From assembly GCA_000688615.1 (NCBI GenBank), contig JHVA01000001.1, positions 1,674,001 to 1,738,000 on the forward strand: 64,000 nt of DNA, in the 5' to 3' direction. How positions within the stretch are numbered: position 1 is the stretch's first letter; each line of letters begins with the position of its first letter. The position numbers and the translations under genes were made by a program. The DNA comes from Acidobacteriaceae bacterium KBS 146 (GTDB taxonomy: Bacteria; Acidobacteriota; Terriglobia; Terriglobales; Acidobacteriaceae). A model generated the notes under the pieces. It was not told where the DNA came from. It ran no database searches and worked only from the letters and a program-made list of their open reading frames with translations. Below are positions 10,509 through 17,200 of the stretch, piece by piece.

Positions 10509-12359
10509 ATGAAGAACGAAAAGACCCTTACTGCTGTCCTTCCTTCCGCGCCCCCAACGACGAATAAGCACCTGATCCGCTGGGTGGAAAAGATGGCGGA
10601 CCTTACCCAGCCTGACGCCATTCATTGGGTGGATGGATCCCAGGCGGAGTATGACCTGCTGTGCCGCCAGCTGGTCGATGCCGGCACCTTTGTCAAATTG
10701 AATCAGAAGCTTTGGCCGGGATGTTTTTACGCTCGCTCCGCCCCCAACGACGTTGCGCGGGTCGAGGATCGCACCTTTATCTGTTCGTTGTCGAAAGACA
10801 ATGCCGGACCAACCAATAACTGGGAAGACCCTTTCGTGATGCGCCGCAAGCTGAAGCAGCTCTTCCGGGGCTGCATGCGCGGCCGCACGATGTACGTGAT
10901 GCCCTTCTCGATGGGGCCGGTGGGCTCACCGATGTCGCAGATCGGGGTGCAGCTGACCGACTCCGCCTATGCCGTGGTGAGTATGCGGATCATGGCGAGG
11001 ATAGGGGCTCCGGTGTTCGCCGAGATCGACAGAGACATCAAGCGCGTCGTGCCGTGCATGCATTCGGTCGGGGCTCCACTTGAGCCCGGCCAGCAGGACG
11101 TATCGTGGCCCTGCAACGACGAGAAGTACATCGTCCACTTTCCGGAGACTCGGGAGATCTGGAGCTACGGATCGGGCTACGGCGGAAACGCGCTGCTGGG
11201 CAAGAAGTGCTTCGCACTCCGCATCGCCTCGAACATCGCCCGCGACGAAGGCTGGATGGCCGAACATATGCTGATTCTGGGCGTGGAGTCGCCCAGCCAC
11301 GAGAAGACCTATGTTGCCGCAGCCTTTCCTTCAGCGTGCGGAAAGACCAACTTCGCCATGATGATTCCGCCAGCCGGGTTTGAGGGCTGGAAGATATGGA
11401 CCGTTGGGGACGACATTGCCTGGATCAAGCCGGATGCGACGGGCAGGATGCGCGCCATCAACCCGGAGGCCGGGTTCTTTGGCGTGGCTCCGGGAACCTC
11501 GGCGAAGACCAACCCGAACGCCATGGCGACTCTCGCAAAAAACACGATCTTCACGAATGTAGCGCTCACGCCTGACGGTGGCGTCTGGTGGGAGGGCATG
11601 ACCGATGCTCCCCCGGCAGAGTGCCTGGACTGGCGCGGCAATCCCTGGACGCCGGAGATCGGAAAACAGACCGGCCAACCCGCCGCACACCCCAACGGCC
11701 GCTTTACCGCTCCGGCGAGTCAGTGCCCAACAATCGACCCCGACTGGGAGGCTCCGGAGGGCGTGCCGATCTCCGCCATCATCTTTGGCGGGCGCCGTTC
11801 GACGACGATGCCCCTGGTCTATCAGGCCTTCAACTGGTCCGGCGGAGTCTATGCAGGAGCCACGATGGGGTCAGAGACGACGGCTGCCGCAGGCGGAGCG
11901 CTGGGCAAAGTCCGCCGCGATCCGATGGCGATGCTTCCCTTCTGCGGGTATCACATGGGCGACTACTTCCGGCATTGGATCAAGATGCAGCGAACCCTGA
12001 ATGCGACGCCCCGCATCTTCCACGTGAACTGGTTCCGGAAAGATGCTGACGGCAGATTTCTGTGGCCGGGCTATTCGGAGAATATGCGCGTGCTGAAGTG
12101 GATCGTGGACCGTGTCCGCGGCCGTGCCCAGGGTAAAGAGACTCCCATTGGCTGGACCCCTCACTATGAGGACATCCGGTGGGAGGGCTTGCCGATGTCC
12201 GAGGAGAGGCGGCGTGCCATCTTCGAGGAGCTGCAAACCGTCGATCGGGCGGCCTGGCGACGCGAGGTGATGGATCACGAAGAGCTATTTCTCGCCCTCC
12301 ACGACCACCTTCCGCCGGAGATGATCTACGAGCGGGAGCTTCTAATTTGCCGGCTCTAG
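10509..12359 (+). CDS. pckG: phosphoenolpyruvate carboxykinase (GTP)
   Basis: The 616-residue protein has the usual length and motifs of GTP-dependent PEPCK, which interconverts oxaloacetate and PEP with GTP/GDP in gluconeogenesis. The phosphate-binding loop is [15 protein letters not shown] near residues 272-284, followed by the metal-site region WTVGDDIAW and the guanine-site segment FHVNWFRKD. The substrate site [19 protein letters not shown] is also visible. An AGGAGG ribosome site stands upstream. It is monocistronic here, between a convergent-type esterase gene and an RNA-rich intergenic region. Confidence 0.95.
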
Positions 12360-12464
12360 ATTGCTTGAAAACTCGATGGGCGGATTGCCATATACCATTG
12401 AATATAAAATAGATAACGGATATATGGAGGGGCCGTTTCTTTAGACTTCCTGACTGAAATTATC

Positions 12465-12493
12465 TTGACGCTGTAAAAAATTATCTGTATCTT
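12465..12493 (+). promoter_or_regulatory. predicted promoter P1 of the leader RNA
   Basis: TTGACG at 12465-12470 and TATCTT at 12488-12493 are separated by 17 bp. Transcription would begin near 12500, just before a run of three hairpins. The DNA between 12360 and 12464 is AT-rich and shows nothing else I can name. Confidence 0.5.
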
Positions 12494-12499
12494 AACCGG

Positions 12500-12612
12500 T
12501 GTGGCAGGACTCCCTTCGGGTTGAGTCGGTCATAACGAAGTCCACCCACTTCGTTGATTAACGGAACACCCACGCAACAGCCCCCACCGCGCTGCGTGGG
12601 TTTCCTTTTTAT
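12500..12612 (+). ncRNA. candidate structured RNA of about 110 nt
   Basis: Downstream of P1 three stem-loops follow in order. GACTC(CC)/(GG)GAGTC at 12508-12527 is capped by a cUUCGg tetraloop, AACGAAGT/ACTTCGTT at 12534-12555 has a 6-nt loop, and a terminator hairpin lies at 12568-12601. No convincing ORF is present. It could be a small RNA or a riboswitch-like leader. I cannot match it to a known class by eye. Confidence 0.45.
12568..12610 (+). terminator. terminator hairpin T1
   Basis: ACCCACGCA at 12568-12576 pairs with TGCGTGGGT at 12593-12601 and is followed by ttccttttt. Its loop (acagcccccaccgcgc) is nearly the same as that of T2 220 bp downstream, so the two look like duplicates. 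Confidence 0.7.
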
Positions 12613-12639
12613 ACGGACGAAATTTTCCACGGTCTGAAC

Positions 12640-12668
12640 TTGACGCAATCCCCGGAACCTTTTAACCT
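12640..12668 (+). promoter_or_regulatory. predicted promoter P2 of the Cys-rich leader ORF
   Basis: TTGACG at 12640-12645 and a weak TAACCT at 12663-12668 are 17 bp apart. The predicted start point, 7-8 nt after the -10, falls at the ATG at 12676. This would give a leaderless message, in line with the absence of a Shine-Dalgarno sequence. Confidence 0.4.
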
Positions 12669-12675
12669 TCTCTCA

Positions 12676-12762
12676 ATGGGATTGATGCGCATCGCGGCCT
12701 GTAGCTGTTGTCCTTGTTGTAAGGGCACCTGTTGCTGCTGCGCTGGAATCTCCCTCGCCTAG
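12676..12762 (+). CDS. polycysteine leader peptide (28 aa), putative cysteine sensor
   Basis: An ATG-to-TAG frame of 29 codons carries Cys at positions 9, 11, 12, 14, 15 and 19-22, nine in all, with a central CSCCPCCKGTCCCC. There is no ribosome site upstream and a promoter can be placed so that transcription starts at the ATG. A terminator hairpin (T2) follows 37 nt after the stop. Then come a small membrane protein and a YeiH-type putative sulfate exporter. The distal Cys codons (12733-12742, tgctgctgcg) can pair over 9-10 bp with cgtagcagcg in the left arm of T2. This is the layout of a cysteine-responsive ribosome-stalling attenuator, as described for leaderless polycysteine ORFs in mycobacteria. 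The link to cysteine is inferred. Confidence 0.6.
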   Translation: MGLMRIAACSCCPCCKGTCCCCAGISLA

Positions 12763-12798
12763 GTCCACACCGTAAAGTAAGACCTGGAAGATCTCTGG

Positions 12799-12837
12799 AA
12801 CCCACGTAGCAGCGCCTACCGCGCACGTGGGTTTTTC
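12799..12837 (+). terminator. attenuator terminator hairpin T2
   Basis: AACCCACGT at 12799-12807 pairs with ACGTGGGTT at 12825-12833, an inner GCGC/GCGC helix extends it, and a T run follows. Its left arm and adjacent loop (cgtagcagc, 12805-12813) are complementary to the Cys codon run of the leader ORF, giving an alternative antiterminator pairing. Confidence 0.75.
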
Positions 12838-12886
12838 TATTGCCCGCGGGAAACCTCAAAAAACTCAGCGTTGAATCGAGGCAATC

Positions 12887-13003
12887 ATGGCAGTCCCCCA
12901 AATATCCAATAGCCGAATCAATATCGACCTGATCGCTGTAGCGATCGCCCTTACGCTGGCCGGATTGATTCGCTTCAACCTGATTCCGCCAGTCGGATTC
13001 TAA
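12887..13003 (+). CDS. 38-aa small membrane protein
   Basis: A short ATG frame preceded by GAGG at a suitable distance encodes a polar N-terminus (MAVPQISNSRINID) and one hydrophobic helix (LIAVAIALTLAGLI) ending near a Pro-Pro. The TAA is part of the AAGGA ribosome site of the YeiH-type gene 9 bp later, so the two are probably translated together. It could be a subunit or regulator of the transporter. I do not recognise the family. Confidence 0.6.
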   Translation: MAVPQISNSRINIDLIAVAIALTLAGLIRFNLIPPVGF

Positions 13004-13012
13004 GGAATCTTC

Positions 13013-14104
13013 GTGTCGGTCCAGACGATCCCGCTAACCGCGCCTGCGCCATCACTCAGCACAAGGTTTCTTCGCCTTCTGCCGGGGGTTGCGCTGCTCT
13101 TCGGGATCGGTCTTATGGGCAAATTGCTGCAGGAGATGTTCACCCTTCTCCGCGCCTCCCATCCTGGTATTCCCTTTCCTCATCTTGAATATGTGCTCTG
13201 GGCAATCCTGCTGGGATTGTTTGTCAGCAACACCTTTGGCGTAGCCCGGTTTCTTCAGCCGGGAGTGGCGACCTATGAACTTTGGCTGAAGCTTGGCATC
13301 GTCCTTGTGGGAGCCCGATTTCTGCTGCAGGACATTCTGCACATCGGCGGTCTTTCTCTCGCTCTGGTTGCGGTGGAGCTGACGCTCTCGCTGTCGATGA
13401 TGCATCTACTGGGACGGCTCTTCCGCCTGCCGCCAAAACTGACTTCTCTGCTTGCGATTGGATCGAGCATCTGCGGCGTCACGGCGATCATGGCCGCCCG
13501 CGGTGCCATCGACCCTGAAGAGAAGGAGACCTCCACCGCCATCGCCGCCATTCTTACGCTGGGCGCGATCGCGCTGTTTACCTTTCCCGCCATCGGCCAT
13601 GCGCTCCACATGAGCCAGCAAGGGTACGGCATGTGGGCCGGGCTGGCCGTCGACAACACGGCCGAGTCTCTCGTCACCGGATCGCTGTATGGCGAAGAGG
13701 CGGGACGATGGACCGTACTGGCAAAGACCGCACGCTCGGGCTTCATCGGCTTTGTGGTGCTTGCCTACGCTGTCTACTGGTCCTCGCGAGGACTGGCACC
13801 GGATGTGGAACACAAGGGCCTGTTTCTCTGGCGCAAGTTTCCGAAGTTCATTCTTGGCTTCATCGCGCTTTCGATTCTGGCGACCGCGGGCTTCTTTACC
13901 CATAGCCAGCTCACCAGCCTGACCAATCTCTCCAAGTGGGCCTTCCTTCCTGCATTCGCTGGAGTGGGCCTCAGAACGAATCTGCGCGATCTGACCGGCC
14001 AGGGATGGCGTCCGCTGATCGTCGGCATCCTCGGGGAGATCGCGATTGCGCTGATCACGCTGGGGCTCGTTTACTGGAGCTACAACCACGGAATCGCACG
14101 ATGA
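13013..14104 (+). CDS. YeiH/UPF0324 family putative sulfate exporter
   Basis: The 363-residue membrane protein begins at a GTG with AAGGA upstream. About ten hydrophobic segments are visible, with the family-typical LLAIGSSICGVTAIMAARGAI and AGLAVDNTAESLVTGSLYG. Members are annotated as putative sulfate exporters and are often placed with sulfur or cysteine genes, though the transported ion is not settled. It is the last gene behind the polycysteine leader and T2 attenuator and is therefore probably controlled by them. The context supports a role in sulfur anion handling. Confidence 0.82.
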   Translation: MSVQTIPLTAPAPSLSTRFLRLLPGVALLFGIGLMGKLLQEMFTLLRASHPGIPFPHLEYVLWAILLGLFVSNTFGVARFLQPGVATYELWLKLGIVLVGARFLLQDILHIGGLSLALVAVELTLSLSMMHLLGRLFRLPPKLTSLLAIGSSICGVTAIMAARGAIDPEEKETSTAIAAILTLGAIALFTFPAIGHALHMSQQGYGMWAGLAVDNTAESLVTGSLYGEEAGRWTVLAKTARSGFIGFVVLAYAVYWSSRGLAPDVEHKGLFLWRKFPKFILGFIALSILATAGFFTHSQLTSLTNLSKWAFLPAFAGVGLRTNLRDLTGQGWRPLIVGILGEIAIALITLGLVYWSYNHGIAR

Positions 14105-14246
14105 CTTCCTTCTTCCCTGCTGCAATCGATCGCTGTTGTCGTCGCTCCTAAGGCGAGGACCAGTCCTCTTTTCACAAAACAAAAGATCCCTCATATAACT
14201 TGCTGCCCCTTACCAGAGGTGCACCTTTCGCTTTTCGGAGACCACC

Positions 14247-17200
14247 ATGTACGACCGCACCCATACGTCTATCCTGTTCCGCCGCTCTCGCGCCGGGTTC
14301 CTTCTCAGCGCGCTGCTGGCTTTTCTCATTGCGCCATTTTCCTTAACGGCTTACTCCCAGGTTGTCGGAGGAACTCTCTCCGGCGTCGTCAGCGATCCCA
14401 GCGGAGCCGCGCTCTCCGACGCCACAGTGTTGATCCACAATGATGAGACCGGCAACGAGAGAAAGCTGGTAACAGGCGGCGATGGCCGCTTCTCTGCACC
14501 CTCGGTTCCCATCGGGAGCTATACCATCACGGTGCAGCATGACGGTTTCAGCAATCAGCGTCACACGGGAATCCCGCTCACCGTGGGCCAGAGCAAGGAG
14601 ATCAACTTCTCGCTGACCGTCGATGCGATTGAGCAGCAGGTGACGGTTGAGGACACTCCTTCGGTCGTCAACCTCTCGACGCAGCAGACATCCGGCCTGG
14701 TGGATGAGCGACAGATCAAACAGCTGCCGCTGAACGGACGAAGCTACGATCAGCTGATTACGCTGAACCCTGCCGTCGTCAACTACACCGGTCAGCGATC
14801 GGGAACGATTGGAACCTCAAACTCCTCCGTGGGGAACATGTTTTCGATCTCCGGCCGCCGTCCGCAGGACAATCTCTTCCTGTTGAACGGAATCGAGTAC
14901 ACGGGAGCTTCGCTGATCAATGTAACTCCGGGAGGCACGAGCGGCCAGCTTCTTGGCGTCGACGCCGTGCGCGAGTTCAACGTCGTCAGCGACACCTACT
15001 CGGCGAGCTACGGCAAGCGCCAGGGTGCGCAGATCTCGATCGTGACCGCTTCGGGCACCAACCACATTCATGGGTCTGCGTATGAGTTTCTGCGCAACTC
15101 TGCTCTGGATGCGCGCAACTACTTCGACCAGGCGACGATTCCACGCTTCCAGCGCAACAACTTCGGCGGATCGCTTGGCGGTCCCATTCGCCGCGACAAG
15201 GCATTCCTCTTCGCGAACTACGAAGGCTATCGGCAGAACCTGGGCCTCTCCGACGTCACGTTTGTTCCCGATGCGCAGACACGCCAGGGTTATCTTCCCG
15301 ACCCGGCAAATCCTAATGGTCCACGCAAGAACTACGGCATAGCTCCGGGCATCGCTCCGCTCTTAAACCTCTGGCCCGAACAGAACGGCCCTGCGCTGTT
15401 GGATGGCAAAGGAAACCAGACCGGTATTGCGCTGGCGTATTCGAACCCGATGCAGCACATCCGCGAAGATTTTGGGACGACGCGCGCTGATTACAACATC
15501 GGCACGCGCGACCTGTTCTTTGGCGTCTATACCATCGACGATTCGACTGCGGATACACCTACCCAGAATCCTCTCGCTTCCATCAACGAAGACCTCCGCG
15601 AACAGGTTGCCAGTCTGCAGGAGCAGCACATCTTTTCTCCTCGCCTGCTCAACACTGCACGCTTCGGATTTTCGCGTGCTTCGTTCTTCTTTCTGGGAAC
15701 CTCGTCTCCGCTTGGCGGCGCCGATGTGCCCGGCTGGGTCGCGGGCAAGCCCGTCGGCGCGATCGTCATCGCTGGCTCGACTGCATCCAACGGTTCTTCC
15801 CAGATCACAGGCGCCGGAGCCAACGTCGGCTCCAACAACGCGACCACGCGCAATCTCTTCACCTTCGACGACCATATCTTCTGGACCCACGGCCGTCATC
15901 AGATCGAGGCAGGAGGCTGGCTGCAGCGGCTGCAGTCCAACGACAACCTTGCACAGAATCAGTTTGGGCAGGCATCGTTCGCCTCGCTGACGACGTTCCT
16001 GCAAGGTACGGTGAAGACCTTCACCGTTGTGCCTTCGCCAACCAAGCTGGGATGGCGTTCGTGGATGGGAGCCGGATACCTGGAAGACACCATCAAGCTG
16101 ACGCCGCGCGTTGAGCTGCGCGCCGGCCTTCGCGTGGAATCCACCAACGGCTTCAATGAGTCGCAGGGCCGCGCCTCGAACTATGCCTTCACCAACGGCG
16201 TCATCAATACCAATCCGTTCGTTGGGTCTTCTCCTCTGACGGAAAACCGCGCAAAGTTCCTGCCCGCACCGCGACTTGGTCTGGCGTGGGACGTACACGG
16301 CGATGGCAAGACCAGCGTTCGCGCCGGATTCGGCATGCACTACTCTCTGCTGGACAATCTGAACTATCGTCTCGATCAGGCAGCGCCGTTCAATACCACG
16401 CTGTCGCTGGCCAATGTCGCTGTCTCCAGCCTTCACATCTCCTCTTCCACGCAGCCATCGCCGGGGACGCTGATCTCTCCGTCGAATGTGCAAACCAATC
16501 TGGCAACACCGACCGTGTTGTCGTGGAGCCTGCAGGTCGAGCAGCAGATCGCTTCGAACACCTCCCTAACCCTCGGCTACATCGGCTCGCGTGGTTATAA
16601 CCAGATTCTCTCCGCCGACCTCAACGAGCCCGAAGCCACCGTGGTCAACGGGAGGATCTACTACCCTACAACCACGAAGGTGAATCCCGCTGTCGCCAAT
16701 ACCACTTCATGGATCTCGCGTGGATACAGCAACTACAACGGCCTCGTAGTCGATGTGCGCCGCAACCTCTCCCGAGGACTGCAGATTCGCGGGAACTATA
16801 CCTTCTCGAAGAATCTCGACAACGGCTCCGCATGGAATACGAGCGTCAGCGCCAATACGCCGGCCTTCGTCTCCTACCCGGCGAATCCTGACGTCGACTA
16901 CGGCCCGTCCGCAAGCGACATTCGGCATATCGTGGCCATTAACGGGACATACGACCTTCCTCTGGGACAGGGCCACGCTCTGGGCTCCAACCTCTCCGGC
17001 ATTGCAAATCGGTCTGTCAGCGGATGGACGCTCAGCTCGATTCTGACCTTGCAGTCGGGCTTCCCCTTCTCGCCGCAGCTTGGCTACAACCCGACCGGTT
17101 CGGGCGATACCCGCAATCCGGTGCGTCCGGACATCAATCCTGACTTCCACGGCAAGCTGTATCCGCGAACCCCGCAGCAGTACTACAATCCTGCCGCGTT

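Follow-up and report, generated by a model that had tools for sequence, protein, structure and literature searches.

The short cysteine-rich ORF that precedes a yeiH-like gene in the window (the whole stretch of 64,000 nucleotides that was analysed) is very probably the leader of a trp-type, ribosome-mediated transcription attenuator, which would sense Cys-tRNA through an apparently leaderless poly-Cys ORF. A cysteine-responsive attenuator had been proposed at this place by the first-pass annotation of the sequence, and this reading is supported by the conservation of the leader, the leaderless-type geometry of its promoter, the mutually exclusive structures predicted for its RNA and the presence of comparable leaders in front of the cysD operon. 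As expected for a trp-type attenuator, the leader is rich in a single amino acid (9 Cys among 28 codons) and an intrinsic terminator is located before the structural genes; in addition, folding predicts an exclusive antiterminator switched by the position of the ribosome in 41/41 leaders. The elements discussed below are the following.

12640-12668, + strand: predicted promoter TTGACG-17-TAACCT (-35 TTGACG at 12640-12645, 17-bp spacer, -10 TAACCT at 12663-12668)
12676-12762, + strand: poly-Cys leader ORF, MGLMRIAACSCCPCCKGTCCCCAGISLA, 28 codons, 9 Cys, TAG stop
12700-12720, + strand: Cys cluster 1, coding for C-S-C-C-P-C-C; segment 1, where the ribosome is proposed to stall
12730-12746, + strand: Cys cluster 2 and the following GG; segment 2, the predicted antiterminator arm, complementary to the left arm of the terminator
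12759-12787, + strand: stop-codon hairpin, CUAGGUC (12759-12765) with GACCUGG (12781-12787), inside the antiterminator
12797-12835, + strand: intrinsic terminator, 8-bp core ACCCACGT (12800-12807) with ACGTGGGT (12825-12832), then a T-run
12800-12813 and 12825-12832, + strand: left (segment 3) and right (segment 4) arms of the terminator, with compensatory changes at several pairs
12887-13003, + strand: small protein of 38 aa with a single transmembrane segment (TM), SD-like GAGG
13013-14104, + strand: YeiH-like (PF03601) membrane transporter, 363 aa, GTG start

The ORF of 28 codons, nine of them for Cys, is present as first annotated. No SD-like motif was found in front of it in the window, nor in front of any of the 38 leaders tested (0/38), in agreement with the earlier remark that a ribosome site is missing. 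The -10 element lies 7 nt from the ATG. A TTGAC -35 and a TAnnnT -10 with a spacing of about 17 bp are found in 38/38 tested leaders, at a distance of 6-11 nt between the -10 and the start codon (3 nt in one of them), and the promoter placement formerly described as fitting an RNA that begins at the ATG is thus kept throughout the sample. From this geometry, the first base of the transcript is predicted to be that of the ATG or one beside it, which would make the RNA leaderless; in some relatives, the 9-11 nt between the -10 and the ATG would leave a few untranslated bases at the 5' end. The Cys codons of cluster 1 in the leaders are TGT in 151 cases and TGC in 52, the corresponding figures being 0 and 18 in the sampled yeiH genes and 6 and 16 in the genes of the window.

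The leader is widely conserved among the relatives. A protein search of 61 genomes recovered 17 close yeiH orthologs (at least 74% identity), the one of the window among them, as well as a clade of paralogs with an identity near 60%. All 17 close orthologs belong to the same genus and are preceded by a poly-Cys ORF. Scanning named genomes, in which Edaphobacter modestus is the closest named relative (89%), extended this result to nearly all named Acidobacteriaceae yeiH genes, in Edaphobacter, Granulicella, Terriglobus, Bryocella and Paracidobacterium. The leaders contain 6-11 Cys in nearly all relatives, and some of the peptides are strongly diverged among the named ones, such as MKQIHTAAFCCMCCRMPRCRAGVCLL. 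The comparison of the Cys run and the hairpin in other Terriglobia, suggested as a check by the first-pass annotation, is therefore positive across several genera. A profile of the main-clade leader recovered 11 genomes among 299 of the class, all from the genus of the window; two weak matches outside the genus looked like chance. Genome-wide scans for Cys patterns returned mostly chance matches in coding frames and missed the cysD leader described below. One Acidobacteriaceae yeiH copy (L118, 2386-4131) is clearly devoid of a poly-Cys leader and stands directly behind the APS kinase gene cysC, which links the family to sulfate activation.

In the classical trp-type attenuator, the leader ORF is enriched in codons for a single amino acid, and its RNA can form 1:2, 2:3 or 3:4 pairings as alternatives. 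The same three pairings are predicted here, in which the ORF folds on itself (1:2), the second half of the ORF pairs with the left arm of the terminator (2:3), or the two arms of the terminator pair with each other (3:4). The strong terminator hairpin noted earlier after the ORF is indeed present at 12797-12835, and the proposed pairing of the second Cys cluster with its left arm is confirmed by nine uninterrupted pairs out of nine, one of them G-U, between GCTGCTGCG (12734-12742) and CGTAGCAGC (12805-12813). This 2:3 pairing encloses the stop-codon hairpin. Compensatory changes are found in the terminator (for example ACCCACG/CGUGGGU versus GCCCACG/CGUGGGC, and also CAAGC/GCUUG), and the stop-codon helix covaries in most relatives (CUAAGC/GCUUAG, CUAGGUC/GACCUGG, CUAAACC/GGUUUAG). 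The core pairs of the antiterminator are kept nearly always across the leaders. In the Paracidobacterium leader (L139), bases have changed in all segments and complementarity is kept (GCUGACA with UGUCAGC); outside Paracidobacterium, the covariation of the 2:3 pairing is modest. The antiterminator scored 24.06 with its own partner, 23.34 with swapped partners (sd 0.18, best of 2000 24.14) and 16.1 after shuffling of the codons. No Rfam family was matched in positions 11500-14600 with E up to 1.

The effect of the ribosome was modelled in 41 leaders by constrained partition functions, with a block placed either on Cys cluster 1 or on the stop codon. The mean probability of pairing between the left arm and the 3' half of the ORF was 0.79 when the ribosome occupied Cys cluster 1 and 0.09 when it had reached the stop codon; the pairing of the left arm with the ORF reached 0.33 without a ribosome and 0.46 when the codon order was shuffled. 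The stalled state exceeded the stop state in 41/41 leaders: in these predictions, a block on cluster 1 promotes the antiterminator and one on the stop codon frees the terminator. According to the mechanism proposed on this basis, RNA polymerase would initiate at the ATG or beside it, and translation by a 70S ribosome would begin at the 5' end. If cysteine is sufficient, the ribosome would proceed to the stop codon, and behind it the first half of the ORF would pair with the second (1:2); the terminator (3:4) would then form, and neither the small membrane protein nor YeiH would be made. When cysteine is short, the ribosome would be stalled on Cys cluster 1 and would mask segment 1, leaving Cys cluster 2 to pair with the left arm of the terminator around the stop-codon hairpin (2:3), and the operon would be transcribed. 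Since the 3:4 form is often more stable than the antiterminator once the whole terminator is present, this model requires that the antiterminator be formed earlier, and the order of synthesis matters. Synonymous recoding with local codon usage did not weaken the 2:3 pairing in the main clade; the test is non-discriminating there, and selection at the level of the bases on the main-clade codons is thus not proven.

Poly-Cys leaders are not restricted to this locus. In the same genome, an operon of cysD-like, cysN-like and PAPS-reductase genes is preceded by the leader MANLTQRACCCRRMLPCPCARCCR with a leaderless-type promoter, TTGCGG-17-TATAGT-7-ATG (L189, 5342-5416; contig C1 of this genome, about 4351341). 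Leaderless-type poly-Cys leaders were detected before the cysD/cysN/PAPS-reductase operon at 22 of the 26 loci of relatives, as against 5 of 442 control windows, and ACCCAC...GTGGGT terminators are present at several of them. These cysD leaders have only the Cys runs in common. A second yeiH gene of the same genome has the leaderless-type poly-Cys leader MIPIFQLVTSGQIAACCCR, and most loci of this second clade carry endings such as ...RCCCS, with a full promoter match in 5/14. An apparent lack of leaders in the second clade was an artefact of a strict filter (at least 4 Cys); a relaxed filter found CCCS/CCCR leaders in most loci. The sulfur or cysteine genes downstream of poly-Cys leaders are yeiH (PF03601) and the cysD operon. 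As similar leaders precede sulfate-assimilation genes in the same soil bacteria, the yeiH leader looks like part of a cysteine regulon, or control network, of the Acidobacteriaceae.

Other explanations were weighed against an attenuator governed by Cys decoding. The Cys-rich peptide could itself be the product or the sensor, as a metal- or thiol-binding molecule or an arrest peptide, the speed of Cys decoding playing no part. The Cys positions are indeed the most conserved residues of the leader, but its sequence and Cys arrangement are very different from clade to clade, unlike the promoter geometry, the antiterminator and the terminator, which are retained, and the little that the cysD leaders share also speaks against a conserved peptide, which makes this explanation very unlikely. 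Attenuation could also be real with a leader translated from a longer transcript that has a normal 5' UTR, arising for example by read-through from upstream, where a unit with a promoter and a terminator is found at 12465-12612. This is improbable, given that this unit has its own terminator at its end and that the 38 leaders combine the lack of SD-like motifs with a promoter at a nearly fixed distance from the start codon. As for a plain terminator preceded by a chance Cys-run ORF with no relation to it, short Cys-containing ORFs are not rare in this GC-rich DNA (23 in the window); leader and hairpin nevertheless co-occur and are kept across orthologs and genera, which already contradicts a chance association and leaves it hardly credible.

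Two genes follow the attenuator, as first annotated, a small membrane protein and a member of the YeiH family (PF03601); the label of exporter fared less well. The TIGR00698 model (NCBI YeiH family putative sulfate export transporter) gave 112.8 bits, under its curated cut-off of 232.6, so that "sulfate exporter" is a family-level label only. In Salmonella, YeiH is required to resist sulfite, and the name "sulfate exporter" is no more than an annotation (PMC12880088). The label is thus doubtful for the YeiH-like protein: an exporter induced by cysteine shortage would be odd, unless sulfite is vented or the protein imports. Control by cysteine starvation would fit either the relief of sulfite made by assimilation or uptake. 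AlphaFold gave only a poor model of YeiH (pLDDT 47), which was not taken as a basis for a fold search. The small membrane ORF is present between leader and yeiH, with SD-like sequences, in 17/17 close orthologs; the protein of the window had no Pfam or NCBIfam match. A single-TM protein of 33-48 aa precedes yeiH in both Acidobacteria clades (L138, 2837; L139, 2779), and one is also found ahead of yeiH in Orenia (Bacillota; MELEKIGVSTDWLAVIIALILCLLVKFGLITNIPW). On the basis of this recurrent position, the small protein is likely to be a conserved partner of the transporter.

Compared with the classical trp-type attenuator, the present one shares the alternative pairings around a leader rich in a single amino acid and differs by its predicted leaderless start and by an antiterminator arm that is located in the second Cys cluster and closes around a stop-codon hairpin. 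Leaderless poly-Cys attenuators have been reported for mycobacteria (Canestrari et al. 2020, doi 10.1111/mmi.14498, as cited in PMC9031893). They share with the leaders described here a short ORF with contiguous Cys codons and an operon downstream, and their leaderless start and their control through the speed of the ribosome on these codons are also predicted here; they belong to another phylum, and the control described in PMC9031893 is one of translation, whereas a conserved intrinsic terminator and antiterminator are found here. Poly-Cys leaders were also predicted upstream of actinobacterial cys operons, with no conserved terminator hairpin for those of Mycobacterium (PMC1262725). In the Rhodobacterales, the Cys attenuator uORFC-8-2 was predicted before cysS (PMC8632094). 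It likewise combines a uORF containing Cys codons with an intrinsic terminator downstream; it has only two tandem Cys codons and precedes the gene of cysteinyl-tRNA synthetase, and the passage that describes it mentions no leaderless start. A search of open-licence papers found no report of such leaders for Acidobacteriota. The elements are individually of known kinds, and their combination, the phylum and the targets are new to the literature searched.

These leaders suggest that cysteine control by leaderless poly-Cys ORFs is no mycobacterial peculiarity and that a full terminator/antiterminator switch operates in another phylum. For the YeiH family, which is poorly characterised, control shared with sulfate assimilation provides a regulatory clue. 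Tentatively, such attenuators might govern sulfate assimilation and YeiH-type transport in the Acidobacteriaceae, either replacing a dedicated transcription factor or acting above one, and YeiH, together with its small membrane partner, might be a cysteine-starvation protein serving assimilation and not a plain sulfate exporter.

The unit located just upstream of the leader, at 12465-12612 on the + strand, corresponds to a separate and strikingly conserved RNA, some 115 nt long, which has a promoter (TTGACG-17-TATCTT) and a terminator of its own and for which three hairpins with C-rich loops are predicted. It was found in 24 same-genus genomes among 250 of the class (89-100% identity), with one further weak partial match, and it often occurs without a neighbouring poly-Cys leader. 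The Rfam search that covered 11500-14600 gave no match to it, and it is a candidate for a new small RNA. In one genome (L272, neighbours L275 and L276), the terminator part of this RNA is found three times in a row.
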